In this document: positions 42,756 to 63,280 of the stretch, piece by piece | How positions within the stretch are numbered: position 1 is the first letter of the stretch | How the letters are laid out: every line of letters begins with the position of its first letter | Translations under genes and position numbers: made by a program | Notes under the pieces: generated by a model | The model's database searches: none | The model's input: the letters and a program-made list of their open reading frames with translations, nothing else | Told to the model about the DNA's origin: nothing | Assembly: GCA_017400135.1 (NCBI GenBank) | Contig: JAFPVJ010000019.1 | Location: forward strand, 186,001 to 250,000 | Source of the DNA: Bacteroidales bacterium | GTDB lineage: Bacteria; Bacteroidota; Bacteroidia; Bacteroidales; UBA932 | Reading direction: 5' to 3' | DNA length: 64,000 nucleotides

Positions 42756-45700
42756 ATGAAAAAACTGCTCTCCAGTATCCTTCTTGCGGCCCTCGCCGCC
42801 CTGATCCTGATCTCCTGCGACGCCCGGAAATCCGCGACCCGGTCCGACGACCTGGCTGCATGCGTCGATCCCTTCATCGGCAGCGGCGGCCACGGCCATG
42901 TTTTCGTCGGCGCCTGCGTGCCCTTCGGTCTCGTCCAGCTCGGTCCCACCAGCATTCCCCAGGAATGGGACTGGTGCTCAGGCTACCACCAGAGTGACTC
43001 CAGCGTCATCGGATTCTCCCATACGCACATCAGCGGTTCCGGCATCGGCGACCTCTTCGACGTCACGGTCATGCCTGTCGTCGGCACGGAACTGACTTAC
43101 GCCCGCGGCAACGGGGACGATCCCGCCTCCGGCCTCTGGTCTCCCGCCGACCGCACGAAGGAGGTCTGCACGCCCGGCTACTACAGCGTCCCCCTGACGC
43201 GCTACGGCGTCATCGCCGAAATGACCGCCACCGAGCGGGTCGGATTCCATCGTTACACCTTCCCCGCCGCCCAGAGCGCCGCCCTGGTCTTCGACCTGGA
43301 GAATGGCGGCTGCTGGGACAAGGCGACGGAAACGCACATCGAGTCCGACGGCAAGCGCATCAAGGGATGGCGCTATTCCCACGGCTGGGCCAAGGATCAG
43401 AAAATCTGGTTCGTCGCAGAATGCGACAAGCCCTTCACCTTCGAAGCCATCAACGACCGCTACGCCCGCCTCAACTTCAAGACCGCCAAGGATGAAAAGG
43501 TCCAGTTGAAGGTCGCCCTTTCCGTCACCGGAATCGAAGGGGCGGAGAAGAACCTGGAAGCCGAACTGCCCGGCTGGGACTTCAAGGCCACCTGCACCGC
43601 CGCCCGGGCCAAGTGGAACGAGGAACTCTCCAAGGTCCAGGTCACGACCTCCGACGAGAAGAACCGCAAGATCTTCTACACGGCTCTCTACCACGCTTTC
43701 ATCGCCCCCGCACTCTTCTGCGACAACGGAGCAGATCCCGAATATACGATCTTCTCCCTTTGGGACACCTACCGCGCCGCGATGCCACTCTACACCATCC
43801 TCCAGCCCGGGCGTGAAAGCGATTTCATGAAGAGTTTCCTCAAGATCTACGGGCGCCAGGGCAAGTTGCCCGTCTGGCACCTGCACGGCAACGAGACCGA
43901 CTGCATGGTCGGCAACCCGGGCGTCGCCGCCATGGCGGACGCCGTCACCAAGGACATTCCCGGATTCGACCCGGAGCAAGCCTTCGAGGCCATGAAGGCA
44001 TCCGCCCTCCGTCCCGACCGCGGACAGGACCTGCGGATGAAATACGGCTACATCCCCGCCGACCTTTACAACCAGTCCCTGGCCTTCGACATGGAATATG
44101 CCGTTGCCGACTGGGCTCTTGCCCAGGCCGCCCAAAAACTCGGCAAGGACGCGGATTATGATTATTTCCTCGAGCGCAGTCATAGCTACCGCAACTTCTT
44201 CGATCCCTCCGTCGGCTTCATGCGCGGAAAGGACAGCCGCGGCCGCTTCGTAGAGCCGTTCAACCCCTATTTCTCCGACCACAGCCGCTCTCCCTACACC
44301 GAAGGCAACGCCTGGCAGTACACCTGGCTGGTTCCCCACGACCTGAAAGGCCTGACCGAATGCTTCGGCTCCAAACGGGCGCTCCTCCGGAAACTCGACT
44401 CCCTCTTCGTCGTCTCTTCCGAGATCCAGGGCGAAAACGCTTCCTCGGACATCTCCGGCCTGATCGGCCAGTATGCCCACGGCAACGAGCCCAGCCACCA
44501 CATCCTCTACTTCTACACAATGCTCGGCAAGCCCTGGAAGACCGCCGACCTTGTCCGTCAGGTCATGTCCGAACTCTACACCGACCAGCCCGACGGCCTC
44601 TCCGGCAACGAAGATGTGGGCCAGATGTCCTCCTGGTACATCCTTTCCGCGATGGGCTTCTACCAGGTCGAACCGGCCGGCGGCCGCTACTGGTTCGGCT
44701 CTCCCCTCTTCGACCGGATGGACCTGAAACTGGAGAACGGACAGACTTTCACGGTCAAGGCCCCCGGCGTGAGTGCGGACAACAAATACATCCGCCGCGT
44801 CTGGCTCAACGGCCAGCCCTATACCAAGCCCTTCATCCGCTACCAGGACATCATGGCCGGCGGCGAACTCGTCTTCGAAATGGGCGCCGAAAAGATGGTC
44901 TGGTACTGCCCCGACGAGCCGGAGGCATACGTGGATCAGCGCCCCGCTCCCGAGAACCGGCTCTTCACGGCGCCAGCCGTCGAGGCCAAGATCGAGGAAG
45001 TCAAGGGCCTGCTGACTAACCCGCGCCTCGCCTGGATGTTCGGCAACTGTTTCCCCAACACCCTGGACACCACCGTCCATTTCACCGAGGACGACGGGAA
45101 CGGGCATCCCGACACCTTCGTCTACACGGGTGACATCCACGCGATGTGGCTGCGGGACAGCGGCGCCCAGGTATGGCCCTACCTGCGCTTTGCGACCGAG
45201 GACGAACTCGTCCGCAAGATGCTCGAGGGTACGATCCGGCGGCAGTTCCTCTGCCTGACCATCGACCCCTACGCCAATGCCTTCAACATCGGTCCCACCG
45301 GCAGCGAATGGGAGTCCGACAACACCAAGATGAATCCTTACGACCACGAGCGCAAATGGGAGATCGACTCGCAGTGCTATCCCATCCGCCTCGCTTACGA
45401 ATACTGGAAGCGGACCGGCGACGGCAGCGTCTTCGACGAGACCTGGACCACGGCCATGGACAACATCCTGCGCGTGCTCAAGGAGCAGCAGCGCAAGAAC
45501 GGCCACGGTTCCTACCGATTCACGCGCGTGACCGACCGCCAGTTCGACACCAAGAGCTGCGACGGCCTGGGCAATCCGGTCAAGCCGGTCGGCCTGATTG
45601 CCTCCGCCTTCCGTCCTTCCGACGACGCCACGGTCTTCGAGTTCCTGGTGCCCTCCAACTTCTTCGCCGTCACCTCTTTGCGCAAGGCCGCAGAGATTCT

Positions 45701-46271
45701 CGAGGAAGTCAACCAGCAGCCCGCCAAGGCTCAGGAATGCCGCGCCCTGGCCGACGAGGTGGAGCAGGCGCTCCGCAAATACGCCGTCTATGACCACCCG
45801 AAATACGGCAAGATATACGCCTTCGAGGTGGACGGTTTCGGCAACCAGCTGCTCGGCGACGACTCCAACGTCCCGTCCCTGCTCGCCATGCCTTATCTGG
45901 GCGACGTCCCCGCCGACGACCCGATTTGGAAAAACACCCGCCGCTATGTCTGGAGCGAGGACAATCCCTGGTTCTTCAAGGGCACGGCCGGCGAAGGCAT
46001 CGGCGGCCCGCACATCGGCCACGGCTTCATCTGGCCCATGTCCATCATGATGAAGGCCTTCACCTCCGATGACGACGAAGAGATCCGCGACTGCATCATC
46101 AGCCTGATGAACACGGACGCCGGCACCGGCTTCATGCACGAATCCTTCCAGCGCAACGACGCCTCCCACTTCACGCGTTCCTGGTTCGCCTGGCAGAACA
46201 CCCTTTTCGGCGAGCTGATCCTCAAGCTCATCGACGACGGACGTCTCGACCTTCTCAATTCGATTAACTAA
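42756..46271 (+). CDS. Fused GH92 alpha-mannosidase and GH125 exo-alpha-1,6-mannosidase, lipoprotein
   Basis: An 1171-residue lipoprotein (lipobox LISC, cysteine near residue 22). Residues about 30-725 are GH92: VDPFIGSGGHGHVFVGACVP, GFSHTHISGSGIGDL, a central WDTYRAAMPLYTI, and GQYAHGNEPSHHILYFY (H575). Residues about 735-1171 are GH125: RLAWMFGNCFPNTLDTTVHF, GDIHAMWLRDSGAQVWPYLR near 797, WEIDSQCYPIRLAYEYWKRT near 868, HGFIWPMSIMMKAF and TGFMHESFQRND near 1127. GH92 enzymes are calcium-dependent exo-mannosidases on alpha-1,2/1,3/1,4/1,6 links; GH125 removes alpha-1,6-mannose. Both are full length, so one surface or periplasmic enzyme could trim branched N-glycan or mannan cores. A second GH92 follows 14 bases later. 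Confidence 0.92.
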   Translation: MKKLLSSILLAALAALILISCDARKSATRSDDLAACVDPFIGSGGHGHVFVGACVPFGLVQLGPTSIPQEWDWCSGYHQSDSSVIGFSHTHISGSGIGDLFDVTVMPVVGTELTYARGNGDDPASGLWSPADRTKEVCTPGYYSVPLTRYGVIAEMTATERVGFHRYTFPAAQSAALVFDLENGGCWDKATETHIESDGKRIKGWRYSHGWAKDQKIWFVAECDKPFTFEAINDRYARLNFKTAKDEKVQLKVALSVTGIEGAEKNLEAELPGWDFKATCTAARAKWNEELSKVQVTTSDEKNRKIFYTALYHAFIAPALFCDNGADPEYTIFSLWDTYRAAMPLYTILQPGRESDFMKSFLKIYGRQGKLPVWHLHGNETDCMVGNPGVAAMADAVTKDIPGFDPEQAFEAMKASALRPDRGQDLRMKYGYIPADLYNQSLAFDMEYAVADWALAQAAQKLGKDADYDYFLERSHSYRNFFDPSVGFMRGKDSRGRFVEPFNPYFSDHSRSPYTEGNAWQYTWLVPHDLKGLTECFGSKRALLRKLDSLFVVSSEIQGENASSDISGLIGQYAHGNEPSHHILYFYTMLGKPWKTADLVRQVMSELYTDQPDGLSGNEDVGQMSSWYILSAMGFYQVEPAGGRYWFGSPLFDRMDLKLENGQTFTVKAPGVSADNKYIRRVWLNGQPYTKPFIRYQDIMAGGELVFEMGAEKMVWYCPDEPEAYVDQRPAPENRLFTAPAVEAKIEEVKGLLTNPRLAWMFGNCFPNTLDTTVHFTEDDGNGHPDTFVYTGDIHAMWLRDSGAQVWPYLRFATEDELVRKMLEGTIRRQFLCLTIDPYANAFNIGPTGSEWESDNTKMNPYDHERKWEIDSQCYPIRLAYEYWKRTGDGSVFDETWTTAMDNILRVLKEQQRKNGHGSYRFTRVTDRQFDTKSCDGLGNPVKPVGLIASAFRPSDDATVFEFLVPSNFFAVTSLRKAAEILEEVNQQPAKAQECRALADEVEQALRKYAVYDHPKYGKIYAFEVDGFGNQLLGDDSNVPSLLAMPYLGDVPADDPIWKNTRRYVWSEDNPWFFKGTAGEGIGGPHIGHGFIWPMSIMMKAFTSDDDEEIRDCIISLMNTDAGTGFMHESFQRNDASHFTRSWFAWQNTLFGELILKLIDDGRLDLLNSIN

Positions 46272-46285
46272 AACCTGACTGCGAT

Positions 46286-48520
46286 ATGCGTAAAACGATC
46301 CTTTGCCTCCTCGCCCTCTGCGTCCTGGCCCTCAGCGCCCCGGCGGCGCAGAAGGATTTCAACCCCGAAGAGTATGTGTCAACCCTGGTGGGCAGCCTGT
46401 CCGATCCCAGTTTCTCCACCGGCAACCTTTACCCGGCCCTGGCCCTGCCCTGGGGCATGAACTTCTGGACGCCCCAGACCGCCAAGAACGGAGACGGATG
46501 GCTCTACGCCTACCAGGCCAAGAAGATACGCGGTTTCCGCCAGACCCATCAGCCCAGCCCCTGGATCAACGACTATGGCTGCTTCAGCGTGATGCCGGTG
46601 TGCGATACCGCCCTCTTCGACCAGGAGGCCCGTGCCAGCTGGTTCTCCCATAAGAACGAGGAAGCGCGCCCGTACTACTACCAGGTCTATCTCTGCGATC
46701 CCGACGTCAACGTCGAGATGACCCCGACCGAGCGGGCCGCGGCGATGCGCTTCACCTATCCCGACAGCCGGACCGCCGGCTTCGTCGTGGATCCCATGTC
46801 GGAAGGCGTGGAACTGAAGGTTGTCGACGAGCGGACGATTTCCGGCTTCACGACCTACAACCGCGGCGGCGTGCCGGAGGGCTTCCGCAACTGGTTCATC
46901 GTCCGCTGTGACAAGCCCTTCGCCGGGGTGTGCGTCAAGGGCGGCGTGGCCGTCATCCATTTCGACACGAAACGCGGCGAGCAGGTCCAGCTCAACCTCG
47001 CCTCCTCCTTCATCTCCCCCGAACAGGCGGAACGCAACCTGGAGGAAATCGGCGACCGTTCCTTCGATGAAGTCTGTGCGGCGGCCAAGGCGGCCTGGCA
47101 CAAGGTGTTGAGCCGCGTGGAAGTCAGCGGCGGCAGCATCGACCAGCTGCGCACCTTCTACTCCTGCCTGTACCGAAGCACCCTCTTCCCGCACAAGTTC
47201 TACGAGATCGGGGAAGACGGCGAGCCCGTGCATTACAGCCCCTTCAACGGAGAGATCCGCAAAGGCTATCTGTACACCGACAGCGGCTTCTGGGACGTGT
47301 TCCGCGCCCAGATTCCCCTGCTCGACCTGCTCTATCCCTCGACCAGCCACGAGATCCAGGAGGGCCTCGCCTGCATCGCCGAGGAGAATGACTTCCTGCC
47401 CGAATGGGCCAGCCCGGGCCACCGCGGCTGCATGGTCGGCAACAATTCCGCCTCGGTCGTCGCCGGGACCTACTTGAAGGGCCTGGGCACGGAGCGCATC
47501 GACACGCTCTACCAGACCCTGGTCTATGCCACGGAGCATCTCCATCCGACGGCACATTCGTCCGGCCGCATGGGGCACGAGTATTACAATTCCCTGGGCT
47601 ATATTCCGTACAACGTCGGCATCAATGAGAATGTCGCCCGCACCCTGGAGTACGCCTACGACGACTGGTGCCTGCTGCAGCTGGCCCGCAAGCTCGGCCG
47701 CCCGCAGGAGGAACTCGACAAGTGGGCCGCCCGCGCGATGAATTACAAGAACGTCTACGACCCGTCCGTGCGCCTGATGCGCGGCCGCAACGAGGATGGC
47801 AGTTTCCAGGAACCTTTCAGCCCTTACAAATGGGGTGACGCCTACACCGAGGGCAACGCCTGGCACTACACCTGGTCCGTCTTCCACGACCCGCAGGGCC
47901 TGATCGACCTGATGGGTGGTCCGGAATCCTTCGTGCAGATGCTGGATTCGGTCTGGGTGGTGCCGTCGATCTATGACGACAGCTACTATCACGCCCGTAT
48001 CCACGAGATCACGGAGATGCAGGTCGCGAACATGGGCAACTACGCCCACGGCAACCAGCCGGCCCAGCATATCATATATCTGTATGACTGGGCGGGACAG
48101 CCCTGGAAGACGCAGATGCGGGCCCGGGAAGTGATGGACAAGCTCTATCGCTGCACGCCGGACGGCTACTGCGGCGACGAGGACAACGGCCAGACTTCGG
48201 CCTGGTACATCCTGTCTGCGCTGGGATTCTATTCCGTCAATCCTTCTGCCGACGAGTATGCGATCGGTTCGCCGCTGTTCGAAAAGGCGGTGGTTCATCT
48301 GGAGAACGGCCGCGACATCGTCATCAAGGCGAAGGGCAACGGTCCGAAGAACGTTTACATCGCTTCCGCCAGGCTGAATGGCCGGAACTGGACGCGAAAC
48401 TATCTGAAATACGAGGACTTGCTGAAGGGTGCCCACATCACTTATAAGATGTCGGACAAGCCCGTCAAGACGCGCGGCACGGCCCCGGAAGACGCCCCCT
48501 ACTCCTTCAGCCGAGAGTAA
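46286..48520 (+). CDS. GH92 family alpha-mannosidase
   Basis: A 744-residue exported protein with a cleavable signal (MRKTILCLLALCVLALSAPA) rather than a lipobox. The fold markers are GNLYPALALPWGMNFWTPQT, FRQTHQPSPWINDYGCF, SGFWDVFRAQIPLLDLLYPS and NYAHGNQPAQHIIYLY (H588). It carries HEITEM (H573-E574), a pair that in characterised GH92 enzymes is linked to alpha-1,2 specificity, whereas the GH92 domain of the preceding gene lacks it; that reading is inference. It probably acts with the fused enzyme on the same glycan. Confidence 0.9.
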   Translation: MRKTILCLLALCVLALSAPAAQKDFNPEEYVSTLVGSLSDPSFSTGNLYPALALPWGMNFWTPQTAKNGDGWLYAYQAKKIRGFRQTHQPSPWINDYGCFSVMPVCDTALFDQEARASWFSHKNEEARPYYYQVYLCDPDVNVEMTPTERAAAMRFTYPDSRTAGFVVDPMSEGVELKVVDERTISGFTTYNRGGVPEGFRNWFIVRCDKPFAGVCVKGGVAVIHFDTKRGEQVQLNLASSFISPEQAERNLEEIGDRSFDEVCAAAKAAWHKVLSRVEVSGGSIDQLRTFYSCLYRSTLFPHKFYEIGEDGEPVHYSPFNGEIRKGYLYTDSGFWDVFRAQIPLLDLLYPSTSHEIQEGLACIAEENDFLPEWASPGHRGCMVGNNSASVVAGTYLKGLGTERIDTLYQTLVYATEHLHPTAHSSGRMGHEYYNSLGYIPYNVGINENVARTLEYAYDDWCLLQLARKLGRPQEELDKWAARAMNYKNVYDPSVRLMRGRNEDGSFQEPFSPYKWGDAYTEGNAWHYTWSVFHDPQGLIDLMGGPESFVQMLDSVWVVPSIYDDSYYHARIHEITEMQVANMGNYAHGNQPAQHIIYLYDWAGQPWKTQMRAREVMDKLYRCTPDGYCGDEDNGQTSAWYILSALGFYSVNPSADEYAIGSPLFEKAVVHLENGRDIVIKAKGNGPKNVYIASARLNGRNWTRNYLKYEDLLKGAHITYKMSDKPVKTRGTAPEDAPYSFSRE

Positions 48521-56087: not shown

Positions 56088-56930
56088 TCAGCGGGCGTCG
56101 TGCTTTTTCTCTTCGCTCGGCGGATAGCCGAAGCGCGCCTTGTAGACACGGGAAAAATGGGAGAAGTTGCAGAAGCCGGCATCCGCCATCGCATCCTGGA
56201 CCCGGACATCCCCTTTTGCCAGCAGTTCCCGGGCCAGTTCCAGCCGCCTGCGTATCAGCCATTTCTGCGGTGGTTCCCCGAAAATGCGACGGAAATCCCG
56301 GTTGAACGCCGAAAGGCTCCGGCCTGAAAAATGGGCGAAATCCGGGAGCGAAAGCTCCATCATGTAGTTTTCTTCCATGAATTCCCGGAGGTCGATTTTC
56401 CACCGGCTAGTGAAGTCGAACAGGGAGGCGTACAGGTTGGCGTCGGTCTTCAGGAGACAGCGCAAACCTTCCGTTTTCTTCATGTCCGCCCATTCCCGGT
56501 CCGGTTTTTCTTCCGACCAGAAATAAGGCAGCAGCGACTGGAACAGGCCCGACACGTCCGGACGCGCCGGGATCTTGCGCAGCGGATTCTCCGGGCGCAC
56601 CGCGCTGACCGGCCCGATCTCGGGTCTCGAACGGCGGTAATAGCCGAGCAGGAAACTTCGCTCAAAGATCATCGCCACGGCTTTGAAAGGTTCGCCTGCG
56701 GGACCGCAGGACTTCGCCAGGGTGATGTTGCAATCCTTCCGCACGAAAATGCACTCCCCCGGCGACAGCCGGATAGTCCGTCCCGGTCCGGCGATCTCCA
56801 GGATGCCGCCGATCAGATGAATCAGGGCGTGGTCTTTCAGTGAAACGGTTTCGCGCAGCGTCTCGTCGTGGATGCAGGAGAAGAAGATGCCGTGGTACTC
56901 CAGGACCCGGGAATCTCGATAGGATGGCAT
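56088..56930 (-). CDS. AraC-family transcriptional regulator
   Basis: A 280-residue regulator from ATG 56930. The N-terminal cupin-like sensor (about 10-100, HALIHLIGGILEIAG, LSPGECIFVRKDCNITL) precedes two helix-turn-helix units: SLPDFAHFSGRSLSAFNRDF and VQDAMADAGFCNFSHFSRVY, ending RFGYPPSEEKK. The ligand is unknown. It is divergent from the TonB receptor at 57013 and probably controls it; a TAATTTTG box 28 bases upstream serves its own gene. A TTG 9 bases earlier is an alternative start. Confidence 0.88.
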   Translation of the reverse strand: MPSYRDSRVLEYHGIFFSCIHDETLRETVSLKDHALIHLIGGILEIAGPGRTIRLSPGECIFVRKDCNITLAKSCGPAGEPFKAVAMIFERSFLLGYYRRSRPEIGPVSAVRPENPLRKIPARPDVSGLFQSLLPYFWSEEKPDREWADMKKTEGLRCLLKTDANLYASLFDFTSRWKIDLREFMEENYMMELSLPDFAHFSGRSLSAFNRDFRRIFGEPPQKWLIRRRLELARELLAKGDVRVQDAMADAGFCNFSHFSRVYKARFGYPPSEEKKHDAR

Positions 56931-56958
56931 GCTCAGCAAAATGATTTGGTACGCAGAG

Positions 56959-56966
56959 CAAAATTA
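56959..56966 (-). promoter_or_regulatory. -7 promoter box of the AraC-family gene
   Basis: TAATTTTG on the minus strand, 28 bases before ATG 56930, in the 82-base gap shared with the TonB receptor. Confidence 0.45.
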
Positions 56967-56983
56967 CAATAATATTTCGATTG

Positions 56984-56991
56984 TTTCTTTG
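56984..56991 (+). promoter_or_regulatory. Weak -7 box of the TonB receptor
   Basis: TTTCTTTG differs by one base from TAnnTTTG and lies 21 bases before ATG 57013. A weak box would fit dependence on the divergent AraC-type activator. Confidence 0.3.
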
Positions 56992-57012
56992 CATTCGAGT
57001 AATAATTGTAAG

Positions 57013-58866
57013 ATGAAAAGATTCGCCCTGATTCTCGGCGGCCTGACCCTCTGCGCCGGCCTTTTTGCCTCTGAAACCGTCCCTGCGACCGATACCCTCC
57101 GCACCTCCGTCGTGACCGGAACCCGCGTCAGCGCCCTGCGCGACCAGATTCCCGCCCCCATCAGCGTCGTGGGCCGGGAAACCCTCGAAACCAGCGACGA
57201 GAACGTCCTGATGCCCGCCCTCATGGAGCAGGTCCCGGGACTCTTCGTCACCTCGCGCGGCGTTACGGGCTATAGTGTCTCCAACGGTGCGGCCGGAGCC
57301 ATCTCTCTTCGCGGATTCGGAGCCGGCAACGGACGCGTAGCCATCCTGATCGACGGCCATCCCCAGTTCGAATCCATCTATGGCCATCCCGTCGCTGACG
57401 AATATCTGGCAGCCAACGCGGCCCGCGTGGAAGTCTCCCGCGGCGCCGCTTCCGTCCTGTACGGGTCCAACGCCCTGGGCGGCGCGATCAACATTATCAC
57501 CCGTCAGCCCGTCCACGATGGCAACGAACTGGGAGTCAAGCTGATGGGCGGCTCGTACGGAACGTACCGCGGCATCCTCAACGACAGCTACAAGAAGGGA
57601 CGATTCACGATGAGCGCCTCCCTGAGCGCCGACCGCACCGCCGGCCACCGGGTCAATTCCGCCTTCAATTCCCTCGGGGGAATGCTGAACGCCGGCTACC
57701 AGATCTCCGACGTCTGGAAGGCCAAGGCCCGAGTCAGCCTGTCCGACGCCTGGTCCCAGAATCCCGGTCCCGTTTCCGCCCCCATCCTGGACGGCACGGC
57801 CAACACGATCCGCGGCATGGCCGGCCTCGCCCTGGAGAATCGGTCCGAGCGTCTCTCCGGCGCCTTTGACCTGTTCTGCAACTGGGGCAACCACATCATC
57901 AACGATGGCCACACGGCGGACAAGCCCGCCCAGGAATACCTTTTCCATGGCACCGACTATACCGCGGGTTTGACCGCCTACCAGACGGCTTCTTTATGGG
58001 ACGGCAACGCCCTGACCGCCGGACTGGATCTGCTTTATTACGGCGGCAATGCCTACCGCAATCCCGTCAAGGAGATCTATGCCGACCACAAATGTCTCAA
58101 TGAAGAGGCCGTCTACCTCCTGGACAAGCAGACCTTCGGCCCCATCACGCTGAGCGCAGGCCTGCGCCTGGACCGCCACAGCGCCTACGGCCTGGAATGG
58201 ATTCCCCAGTTCGGAGCCACCTGGACGCCCGAGACCGGCACCACCGTCAAACTCTCCGCCTCCAAGGGCTTCCGCATGCCCAACATGCGCGAACTCTACA
58301 TGTACGCCGTGGCCAACGAGGCCCTTCTGCCCGAAAAAGCATGGAGCTACGACTTCACCGTCGGACAGCACTTCCTGGACGGGCGGCTGAACGTCGAAGC
58401 CACCGCCTTCTACACCAAGGGCTCCAACATCATCGAGGTCAATGTCGTGGACGGCATCCGCCAGAACCGGAATGTCGGCGCATTCGCCAATACCGGCGCT
58501 GAATTCGCCGCCGACTGGAAAGTCTGCCAGACGCTTTCCTTCAACGCCAACTACAGCTATCTCCACATGGAGAAGATCTACACCGGCGCCCCCATCCACA
58601 AAGCCTGGCTGGGCGGCCGCTGGACCCCGGGCCGCTGGTCCGTCGATCTGGGTGCAATGGGTATTTCCGGCCTGTACCTGACGACCGGAGAGAACGCCCG
58701 CACGGCGCAGTATGTAGACCTGAAGGCCCGCGTGGGCTGCCGGGTGACCAAGGGCCTGGAACTCTTCGTCCGCGGCGCCAACCTCCTCAACCAGACCTAC
58801 GAGACCATGGACGGCTTCCCCGAGCCCGGTATTGTCGTCCTCGGCGGACTCAGTCTGAAAATCTGA
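57013..58866 (+). CDS. TonB-dependent outer-membrane receptor (vitamin/siderophore type)
   Basis: A 617-residue receptor with a signal peptide (MKRFALILGGLTLCAGLFAS), TonB-box-like TLRTSVVTGTRV, a plug domain (about 35-150: QIPAPISVVGRETLE, VPGLFVTSRGVTG, RVAILIDGHPQFESIYGHPV) and the plug-barrel hallmark ARVEVSRGAASVLYGSNALG, then a 22-strand barrel ending with LGGLSLKI. It lacks the carboxypeptidase-like domain of SusC-type receptors and looks like BtuB/FecA-type carriers for small metal chelates or vitamins. It is divergent from an AraC-family gene and convergent on polyprenyl synthetase with a 14-base gap. Confidence 0.93.
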   Translation: MKRFALILGGLTLCAGLFASETVPATDTLRTSVVTGTRVSALRDQIPAPISVVGRETLETSDENVLMPALMEQVPGLFVTSRGVTGYSVSNGAAGAISLRGFGAGNGRVAILIDGHPQFESIYGHPVADEYLAANAARVEVSRGAASVLYGSNALGGAINIITRQPVHDGNELGVKLMGGSYGTYRGILNDSYKKGRFTMSASLSADRTAGHRVNSAFNSLGGMLNAGYQISDVWKAKARVSLSDAWSQNPGPVSAPILDGTANTIRGMAGLALENRSERLSGAFDLFCNWGNHIINDGHTADKPAQEYLFHGTDYTAGLTAYQTASLWDGNALTAGLDLLYYGGNAYRNPVKEIYADHKCLNEEAVYLLDKQTFGPITLSAGLRLDRHSAYGLEWIPQFGATWTPETGTTVKLSASKGFRMPNMRELYMYAVANEALLPEKAWSYDFTVGQHFLDGRLNVEATAFYTKGSNIIEVNVVDGIRQNRNVGAFANTGAEFAADWKVCQTLSFNANYSYLHMEKIYTGAPIHKAWLGGRWTPGRWSVDLGAMGISGLYLTTGENARTAQYVDLKARVGCRVTKGLELFVRGANLLNQTYETMDGFPEPGIVVLGGLSLKI

Positions 58867-60875: not shown

Positions 60876-62255
60876 ATGAAAGCCCTCGACCGGGAAATCC
60901 TGCGCATCGCCCTGCCCAGCATCCTGGCGGGCATCACCGTGCCTCTCGTGGGCATGGTGGACATTGCCGTCGCGGGACATCTGAATGGGGGTGCGGCTGC
61001 TTTCATCGGCGGTATCTCCGTCGGCTCGATGCTCTTCGACCTGCTGTACTGGAACTTTTACTTCCTCCGGGCGGGAACGGGCGGAATGACCGCCCAGGCC
61101 TACGGGCGCGGGGACAGGAAGGAATGTGCCCGGCTCCTGGTCCGGGGCGTGGGTCTGGCCCTGGCCATCGCATTGCTGGTCCTTACGATCCAATGGCCCT
61201 TCACGAAACTCGCCTTCCTGCTGATCGATTGCACGCCCGAGGTCAAGGCGCTGGCTCTGAAATACTTCTTCATCCGGGTCTGGGCCGCTCCGGCCACCCT
61301 GGCCCTGATGGCTTTCAGGGGCTGGTTCATCGGAATGCAGGACTCCGTCAGTTCGATGCTGACCGATCTGGTGGTCAATGGTTTGAATGTTATCTTGAGC
61401 ATTGTGCTGGCCCTGGGCGTCGGCCGCTGGGAGGGGATGGGGTTCCCGGGCGTGGCCGTGGGGACGCTGATTGCGCAATATACCGGTCTGCTCTTCGCCG
61501 TGACCGTCGTGGCTTTCAAGTACGGTGGCGTCTTCGCCGGCTTCGATGCTACGGATATGCGGGCGGCTTTTCACGGGAAAGAGATCCGGCGTTTCTTTGT
61601 CCTCAACACGGACTTGTTCTTTCGCTCGATTGCCATCACGGCCATATACATCGGCTTCACGATGATTTCCGCGGGATACGGCGACCTGACGCTGGCTGCC
61701 GGCGCGATCCTGATGAAACTGCTGATGCTCTTCTCCTTCATTACCGACGGATTCGCCTACGCCGGCCAGGCGCTGGTGGGCAAGTATATCGGAATGCAGA
61801 AACAGGATATGACACGGGCATCCGTGCGCCGGGTCTTTTTCTGGAGCATGGTGATCGCCGGGGCGTTCCTGTTCATCTATGGTTTCGGAGGGATCCCGCT
61901 GCTGCGCGTGATGACCTCCGACGCAAGCGTGGTAGAGGCCTGCCGCCCTTTCCTGCCCTGGCTGATCCTGATGCCGCCGCTGGGCTGCGCGGCCTTCGCC
62001 TGGGACGGCATCTATGAAGGCGCGACGGCCTCCCGTCCGATGCGGGACGCGATGGTAGCCGCGATGGTCGGCTTCTTTGCGCTATGGTTCGCGCTGAAAG
62101 GGTTGATTCCTGGCACCTCAGAGCATCCAGCCCTGGCACTCCATTTCCTGATGGCCGCCTACTTCGTGCACCTGCTCGTCCGCACCGTCTGGCTCAGCGT
62201 CCTCTACCGCCGCTCCGTCGTGGAACGGCCCTTCGGCCTAGATCAGGCGATATAG
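60876..62255 (+). CDS. MATE-family efflux transporter
   Basis: A 459-residue membrane protein with two homologous bundles of six helices. REILRIALPSILAGITVPLV, GMVDIAVAGHLNGGAAAFIG and YWNFYFLRAGTGGMTAQAYG are characteristic of the DinF/NorM group. It exports organic cations or other small molecules with Na+ or H+. It follows rsgA with no gap. Its last 13 bases overlap the convergent manA. Confidence 0.9.
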   Translation: MKALDREILRIALPSILAGITVPLVGMVDIAVAGHLNGGAAAFIGGISVGSMLFDLLYWNFYFLRAGTGGMTAQAYGRGDRKECARLLVRGVGLALAIALLVLTIQWPFTKLAFLLIDCTPEVKALALKYFFIRVWAAPATLALMAFRGWFIGMQDSVSSMLTDLVVNGLNVILSIVLALGVGRWEGMGFPGVAVGTLIAQYTGLLFAVTVVAFKYGGVFAGFDATDMRAAFHGKEIRRFFVLNTDLFFRSIAITAIYIGFTMISAGYGDLTLAAGAILMKLLMLFSFITDGFAYAGQALVGKYIGMQKQDMTRASVRRVFFWSMVIAGAFLFIYGFGGIPLLRVMTSDASVVEACRPFLPWLILMPPLGCAAFAWDGIYEGATASRPMRDAMVAAMVGFFALWFALKGLIPGTSEHPALALHFLMAAYFVHLLVRTVWLSVLYRRSVVERPFGLDQAI

Positions 62256-63280
62256 CTGGTCAGCAGCTTGAAGTGCCCGTCCGGAATGAACTGCAAGGAA
62301 TCCACGCAAGCCGGCACCAGCACCGTCTCACCTTGCCGCACCGGCATCTCCACCAGCTGCGGCCCGGAAAGCGCCTTCGCCCGCCGCGTAAAACCGAAAC
62401 ACTTCCGCTCCCGCATCGGCGCCGGCTCCACGCAACGCAGCGTGCCCGAGCCCTCGACACAAATCACCGTCACGAACGAATCGATGTTATGCAGATCCTT
62501 CTCCAAAGGCTCCGTCAGATCATATAAGGACGTAGTGAAATACGGACAACGCACCAGCACGCTCTCCCGGTTCACACACTTCTGATACCCCGTCCGGTAA
62601 TCCGGCTTCACCGAGAAATCGATCGCATCCTTCGCCAGCTCCGTATGCAGCTCGCGCGGCTTCCCGTCCAGGCCCAGCCGGCCGTAATCATAGATCCGGT
62701 ACGTGATGTCCGACGTCTGCTGGATCTCCGCCACGAAGCAACCCGCCCCGATCGCATGGATACGCCCCGCCGGGATGAAAAACACATCCCCCGGCGCCAC
62801 CGGATAATCGCACAAGACGTCCGTAATCGTCCCCTCAGCCACCCGCGACACATACTCCTCCGGCGTGATCTTCTGGGACAGGCCCGACATCAGATGCGCC
62901 CCCTCGGACGCCCCGACGACATACCACATCTCCGTCTTGCCCTTCGAACCGTCGTGTCTCGAAAAGGCCAGCTTGTCATCCGGATGCACCTGGATGCTCA
63001 AGTCCGACTGCGCGTCGATGAACTTGATCAGCAGCGGAAACTCCGTCCCCGTGCGCTCGTACACCTTCGCGCCCAGCAGCCACTCCTTGCGGGCGGCGCA
63101 AAGCTCCGTGACGGTCTTGCCGTCATACTCCCCGCCGTCGATCACGGACTCGTGGCCCTTTACCCCGGAAAGCTCCCAGCTCTCGCCGATGTGCTCCTGC
63201 TTGGTTTCGATTCCCTTGAACGGGGCGATCTTCTCCCCGCCCCAGACGACCGTCTTCAGATAAGGCTTGAACTTGTACAT
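62243..63280 (-). CDS. manA: Mannose-6-phosphate isomerase, class I
   Basis: A 345-residue cupin enzyme: LLIKFIDAQSDLSIQVHPDD supplies zinc ligands, KTEMWYVVGASEGAHL the glutamate, and GDVFFIPAGRIHAIGAGCFV the last histidine and active loop. It interconverts mannose 6-phosphate and fructose 6-phosphate. It would let mannose released by the GH92/GH125 enzymes enter glycolysis, or supply GDP-mannose. It starts 5 bases after the gpmI stop and overlaps the MATE gene at its end. Confidence 0.92.
   Translation of the reverse strand: MYKFKPYLKTVVWGGEKIAPFKGIETKQEHIGESWELSGVKGHESVIDGGEYDGKTVTELCAARKEWLLGAKVYERTGTEFPLLIKFIDAQSDLSIQVHPDDKLAFSRHDGSKGKTEMWYVVGASEGAHLMSGLSQKITPEEYVSRVAEGTITDVLCDYPVAPGDVFFIPAGRIHAIGAGCFVAEIQQTSDITYRIYDYGRLGLDGKPRELHTELAKDAIDFSVKPDYRTGYQKCVNRESVLVRCPYFTTSLYDLTEPLEKDLHNIDSFVTVICVEGSGTLRCVEPAPMRERKCFGFTRRAKALSGPQLVEMPVRQGETVLVPACVDSLQFIPDGHFKLLTSYIA

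Follow-up and report, generated by a model that had tools for sequence, protein, structure and literature searches.

A GH92-GH125 fusion lipoprotein shared by many Bacteroidales and its putative role in stripping mannose from N-glycan oligosaccharides

We examined a stretch of 64,000 nucleotides from the genome of a Bacteroidales bacterium (GTDB lineage UBA932; assembly GCA_017400135.1, contig JAFPVJ010000019.1, positions 186,001 to 250,000 of the forward strand; hereafter the window) and focused on one gene that joins two glycoside hydrolase (GH) domains, GH92 and GH125, in a single chain behind a lipoprotein signal. The gene is one open frame at 42756-46271 (+), which runs from ATG to stop with zero internal stop codons and encodes 1171 amino acids (aa). 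Three Pfam profiles were covered almost end to end, with scores far over the curated cut-offs: PF17678 (GH92N; 229.8 bits, profile positions 2-236 of 236), PF07971 (559.6 bits, 1-463 of 464) and PF06824 (555.9 bits, 1-414 of 414). An earlier note, made from the letters of the window, had described both domains as apparently complete and in one frame downstream of a lipobox, in agreement with these results, while the limits it gave (residues 30-725 and 735-1171) were slightly displaced at the joint, which lies at about 712 to 725. The GH125 homology reached back to residue 725 in phmmer (against 3on6 and 2p0v, the latter being BT3781) and, because the solved GH125 chains align only from that residue, the linker measures about 10-15 residues. 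The fused protein is thus a real, conserved lipoprotein with two complete domains, and it is common to many Bacteroidales.

Table 1. Features of the fused gene and of the gene that follows it in the window.
Feature	Coordinates	Strand	Evidence
Signal peptide and lipobox LISC (lipidated residue Cys21)	42756..42818	+	motif
GH92 N-terminal beta-sandwich, residues 37-256	42864..43523	+	Pfam PF17678, E 5.3e-68
GH92 catalytic domain, residues 262-710	43539..44885	+	Pfam PF07971, E 8.2e-168
Linker, about residues 713-725, signature WYCPDEPEAY (716-725)	44892..44930	+	
GH125 domain, residues 725-1171	44928..46268	+	Pfam PF06824 755-1156, E 7.2e-167; phmmer
Next gene, GH92 of BT3990 (alpha-1,2) type	46286..48520	+	1044 bits to 2wvx/2wzs

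Relatives were taken from a scan of genome contigs, as the best 80 of at least 588 confirmed ones plus stretches fetched later; they are numbered here as loci (L) and genomes (G). Further GH92-GH125 fusions, for which the earlier note had proposed a search, turned up in many Bacteroidales assemblies: 42 fused frames were counted, including the window gene, near-duplicates and partial copies (two further copies of the window gene were set aside), and 31 of them were complete in a test made before the later stretches were added. The copies in L032, L034 and L033 shared 86%, 85% and 78% identity with the window protein, respectively. In the window's own family, 62 of 249 genomes contained GH125 and eight, our genome included, carried a fused frame of more than 1100 aa, one of which holds an in-frame TAA; in G035 and G053 the fused gene was present and broken by contig ends or frame breaks. 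The wider samples, which hold few members of the lineages found among the best relatives, gave a fused frame of that length only in our own genome, both for the order (393 genomes, 77 with GH125) and for the phylum (395 genomes, 65 with GH125), and the fusion appears to be a peculiarity of certain Bacteroidales. Record titles of the carriers name roe deer, goat, sheep, water buffalo, yak and other gut sources, and the window bacterium probably comes from a gut as well. The fused copy of L120 (G026) contained an in-frame stop and that of L121 (G053) frame breaks, through either decay or assembly error. One frame cut at a contig start (L124:2-2500, G162) combined a peptidase M3 domain with GH125, which could reflect a fusion or a join made during assembly.

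The catalytic acids and bases of both halves are intact. In the GH92 half, E516 and D620 aligned with E535 and D637, the acid and base of BT3130 (PMC5930347). In the GH125 half, D956 and E1129 aligned with D220 of 2nvp and Glu393, which serve as acid and base, respectively (PMC9425025). We compared these positions in an alignment (A1) of 57 chosen rows of fused, split and free relatives, where single-domain rows give gaps: E516 and D620 were invariant in every row with a letter there (39 of 57), and so were D956 and E1129 (46 of 57). The loss of catalytic acids, which by the earlier note would speak against its two-enzyme description, was found in neither domain. GH92 exo-alpha-mannosidases in general depend on Ca2+ for their activity.

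The fused GH92 half is not of the BT3990 (alpha-1,2) type. The alpha-1,2 specificity of BT3990 has been ascribed to Trp88, His584 and Glu585 (PMC5930347), and these three sites were occupied by G, S/T and G in all 106 domains of the GH92 type seen in the fusion (40 fused and 66 single) and by W, H and E in all 68 of the downstream type (67 free and one fused), both counts including near-copies. The closest solved GH92 was 7zgm (579 bits), followed by BT3130. The former is an alpha-1,3-mannosidase acting on plant N-glycan (PMC9522356), and the clade of the latter is described as alpha-1,3 or mixed, BT3965 excepted, with BT3130 itself of uncertain, likely alpha-1,3 specificity and strong activity on yeast alpha-mannan (PMC5930347). 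From these relatives and the absent triad we infer that the fused GH92 half cuts alpha-1,3 mannose. GH125 is given as specific for alpha-1,6 linkages only (PMC10154615). The division of linkages between the two halves that the earlier note had proposed fits the sequence and its context in this form, with a GH92 half that is not alpha-1,2, a GH125 half of an alpha-1,6 family and a neighbouring GH92 of the alpha-1,2 type.

The same note had called the protein a surface enzyme, and here our results did not follow it, as the lipobox shows lipidation only. The positions +2 to +6 after the lipidated cysteine read DARKS in the window protein, with one acidic residue, and two or more acidic residues were present there in 2 of the 28 lipobox-bearing fused proteins (31 complete ones looked at). 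The fused protein thus has the lipobox of a Bacteroidota surface lipoprotein and lacks the acidic export signal, a consensus taken from PMC5080379 that may not be the rule of this lineage. The three GH92 enzymes of B. thetaiotaomicron PUL72 have been called periplasmic (PMC11180146), and by analogy the lipidated fused enzyme is probably held at the outer membrane, facing the periplasm.

The next gene in the window starts 14 bases past the fused gene, and a GH92 of this type was seen downstream in many fused relatives. Its residues W93, H573 and E574 correspond to W88, H584 and E585 of BT3990 (counted by hand on the alignment). A permease gene adjoins the two GH92 genes of the window, as it does in L032 and L034. 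Among 31 open reading frames of the window scanned with Pfam (a subset), we found no SusD model and one TonB receptor (56929-58866), and thus no SusC/SusD pair beside the fused gene. A gene similar to mannose-6-phosphate isomerase lies at 62243-63280; in L061 a similar gene stands behind ROK, right after the fused operon. Opposite the fused gene there is a 1063-aa antisense frame (42978-46169, -), and another opposite the downstream GH92 (46379-48436, -); such long antisense frames are likely a by-product of codon composition. Our own assembly (G000) is a metagenome-assembled genome (MAG) of 28 contigs and 2.3 Mb, 88.6% complete. It contains about 17 GH92 frames and two GH76 matches beside a GH92 on contig C10, and the fused gene holds the only GH125 found in it.

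We then compared the surroundings of 34 fused loci (non-redundant, each flanked by 6 kb or more) and 36 unfused GH125 loci; frames of the kind of L075 (see below) were counted in neither group, and the unfused group is slightly too large, as it holds second pieces of the broken fused genes L120, L121 and L123. GH130 was present within about 9.5 kb of 15 of the 34 fused and 4 of the 36 unfused loci (Fisher p 0.003, indicative only, the loci being related), and ROK kinase and MFS transporter genes were found near 10 and 7 of the 34 fused loci, respectively. The gene run possible in relatives reads (GH97)-MFS-GH130-GH92-GH92::GH125-GH92-(ROK). The GH130 of the fused locus L037 was closest to Uhgb_MP (598 bits), a beta-1,4-mannosyl-N-glycan phosphorylase (PMC8950772, PMC10619541), and GH130 and GH92 genes have also been reported near plant N-glycan PNGases (PMC9522356). 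GH130 matches also occurred in frames of about 990-1280 aa (G189:C1, G183:C11, G222:C1, G118:C12, G177:C6 and G041:C24), which are possible further GH130 fusions.

On balance, we consider it fairly probable that the fused protein is an exo-alpha-mannosidase with two active sites that takes alpha-1,3- and alpha-1,6-linked mannose off N-glycan oligosaccharides, after which the core would undergo phosphorolysis. The downstream BT3990-type GH92 would first remove alpha-1,2 mannose and the GH92 half would then remove alpha-1,3 mannose. The GH125 half would take the remaining alpha-1,6 mannose of the oligosaccharide released from the N-glycan, probably in the periplasm, and the MFS protein would import the leftover mannosyl-beta-1,4-N-acetylglucosamine (Man-beta-1,4-GlcNAc), which GH130 would then split. 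Through the fusion, the alpha-1,3 and alpha-1,6 steps would share their promoter, their stoichiometry and their secretion signal. All steps of this scheme beyond the intact domains are our inference.

Several points weigh against this pathway. The window pairs only two GH92 genes, with no third GH92 adjoining the pair, and the three GH130 matches of the genome lie on other contigs (C9 and C19). The GH18 genes of our genome were considered as a source of the endoglycosidase and rejected, both being chitinase-like by eye, so that no GH18 could be assigned to the release of the glycan. The alpha-1,3 assignment is argued from the relatives and the absent triad; according to PMC9522356 there is no conserved alpha-1,3 motif, and BT3130 is weak on alpha-1,3-mannobiose (PMC5930347). 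A Xanthomonas GH125 is also a beta-1,4-galactosidase (PMC9425025), so that the linkage does not follow from the name of the family. Of the 34 fused loci, 19 showed no GH130 nearby, L043 having one at a greater distance, and GH130 also adjoins GH92 genes in runs without GH125 (L072, L076, L081 and L101); hence it marks the substrate of the operon and not the fusion. Finally, G217 in the family sample and the genome of L039 keep a free GH125 in addition to the fused one.

The order of the two domains was constant, GH92 first and GH125 last in all 42 fused frames, and the linker was 10-16 residues long in 32 of them (range 8-34). The junction read WYC or WYN in 39 of the 42, the window included, the exceptions being three Prevotella loci. 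Two of these, L053 and L060, combine the fused type of GH92 with GH125 through an FGT..DRP junction, while L075 (Prevotella sp. P6B1, L075:7869-11546) joins a BT3990-type GH92 to GH125 by a lysine-rich linker of 25 residues. The fusion arose at least twice, and probably three times. L075 represents an independent fusion, because its GH92 belongs to the other type, and L053/L060 probably represent a further separate one, since their junction differs; in the GH92 tree they group with split relatives (support of 98 in the SH-like approximate likelihood ratio test, SH-aLRT), and a common origin with the main fused group was disfavoured, not formally rejected (approximately unbiased (AU) test, p 0.063). 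A quick GH125 tree had placed the window group apart from the main fused group and so suggested a second fusion or a swapped GH125; this was not upheld, as a tree constrained to keep the two groups together scored higher than the free one (AU p 0.668). With that result and the common WYC/WYN junction, a single origin of the two groups is the preferred reading.

The fusion may carry no kinetic meaning and serve only the co-expression and co-secretion of two sequential, independent exo-enzymes, an explanation to which we give a considerable probability, somewhat short of even. Split GH92 and GH125 neighbours with separate signal peptides, which occur in Prevotella-like loci (L056, L057, L092 and L102), speak for it, and so does the fact that free and fused GH125 largely substitute for each other between genomes. 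In a survey of 32 chosen genomes, 12 of the 13 fused genomes outside the Prevotella group had no other GH125 (the genome of L039 has one more) and neither did the three Prevotella fusion genomes, while genomes with the unfused GH92 ortholog carried a free GH125 elsewhere in 8 of 12 cases and none in the other four (titled Muribaculaceae or Bacteroidales). Loss or fission of the fusion is also suggested, by L079, which stops just past the linker, and by L099, L103 and L104, whose free GH125 are nested among the fused ones of the main clade (support values of 92 and 93, not starred). On the other side, the recurrent origin, the constant order and the short linker would fit a fixed arrangement of the two sites, and none of these features shows cooperation.

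A more specific version of the N-glycan reading can be offered tentatively, and we regard it as less likely than not. The fused protein would be a repeatedly evolved two-site enzyme of the N-glycan core, whose short linker would hand a branched Man5-Man3 arm between the alpha-1,3 and alpha-1,6 sites, the only alpha-1,6-mannosidase of this family in the genome having been moved by the fusion into the N-glycan operon. It would there provide the step that is missing from the PUL72 operon of B. thetaiotaomicron.

Other arrangements of the two genes were also recorded. The order of GH92 and GH125 was opposite in L110, L145, L147, L149 and L151, and GH125 was present within the 1.5-kb flank of 4 of the 29 best order-wide GH92 orthologs (L145, L147, L149 and L151 out of L145-L173). 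At 11 split loci GH92 and GH125 abut in the same frame with one stop between them, an arrangement that may be favoured by the ranking of tblastn hits. Stop-codon readthrough was considered at these loci and rejected, since every one of the downstream GH125 genes carries a Met of its own and, by eye, what resembles a signal peptide. Unfused GH92 orthologs of other families (L154, L157, L158, L160-L163, L165, L166, L168-L170, L172 and L173) had a C-terminal extension of about 170-280 aa, and several of these extensions hold stretches like IYYTLDGSKP.

The substrate could instead be fungal alpha-mannan, which we consider unlikely. The GH92 half would then cut alpha-1,3 caps, its neighbour would remove alpha-1,2 branches, and GH125 would trim the pieces of bared alpha-1,6 backbone that GH76 leaves. 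This would agree with the GH76 pair on contig C10 of our genome, with the activity of BT3130 (the second-closest solved GH92) on yeast mannan mentioned above (PMC5930347), and with the finishing of GH76 products by the GH125 of B. thetaiotaomicron (PMC10154615). In 5 of 22 family genomes (G201, G183, G165, G041 and G177; the 22 are those looked at among 52 family genomes with a free GH125) a free GH125 lay about 15 kb or less from GH76, as did the free copy of G217. None of 10 fused genomes, however, had GH76 within 25 kb of the fused gene, and 6 of the 10 had no GH76 match at all; moreover, N-glycan cores are the substrate suggested by the Uhgb_MP-like GH130 that the operon contains in relatives. 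The difference in GH76 linkage between fused (0/10) and free (5/22) GH125 was not significant (Fisher p 0.15), and proximity to GH76 was dropped as a discriminator of the two.

That one half is catalytically dead and kept for binding or folding only is very improbable: we found no support for it, all covering rows of A1 keep the acid and the base of either half, and no GH125 other than the fused one was found in the genome. An artefact of assembly or frameshift joining two genes, which the earlier note had named as a possible objection (a stop codon or assembly junction between the halves), has next to no probability, fragmented as our own assembly is, since the frame is open, the fusion recurs in L032-L034 and in distant relatives from many assemblies, 39 of the 42 fused frames have the common junction signature, and RefSeq records not titled MAG carry a fusion too (Alistipes sp. 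An66, L041; Prevotella sp. P6B1, L075).

Each half of the protein has known counterparts. The GH125 half shares the catalytic Asp and Glu with BT3781 (2p0v) and 3on6 and aligns with them over about 445 residues (about 737 bits), but those are PDB chains of one domain (461 and 489 residues), whereas the GH125 here is C-terminal and lacks a separate signal peptide. B035DRAFT_03340 (7zgm) is like the fused GH92 in its catalytic residues and type II signal peptide; it has no GH125 domain, and the loop to which binding of the +1 sugar is ascribed is not the same in the two. The high-mannose N-glycan locus PUL72 of B. thetaiotaomicron combines the GH18 BT3987 with three GH92 genes, of which BT3990 is presumably one, and likewise several GH92 specificities stand together in relatives, including a type closest to BT3990. 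PUL72 is described as leaving a trisaccharide to enzymes encoded elsewhere (PMC11180146). Unlike PUL72, the gene runs studied here include GH125 through the fusion, and GH130 often adjoins them in relatives. The GH130 phosphorylases of N-glycan cores, BT1033 and Uhgb_MP, have a counterpart in L037, where the GH130 next to the fused gene has Uhgb_MP as its closest match; the window has no adjoining GH130. The Prevotella fusions (L053, L060 and L075) have the same families in the same order as the window and differ in their junctions, L075 in its GH92 type too.

No GH92/GH125 fusion was found in the open-access literature searched for the pair (titles and abstract openings), and the phrases GH92-GH125 and GH125-GH92 were absent from the open-access papers searched. 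The architecture may already be catalogued in CAZy or InterPro. We are probably dealing with a new, recurrent architecture built of known families in an N-glycan-like setting, and not with a new kind of enzyme.

The fusion links two alpha-mannosidase families in one chain and predicts which of the free genes act in sequence. It also offers a ready-made enzyme for trimming two linkages in N-glycan analysis, and its recurrence in the same order provides natural replicates for asking whether tethered exo-enzymes help on branched glycans. Finally, it hints at a pathway in the gut Bacteroidales of herbivores and poultry, a group that has received little study.

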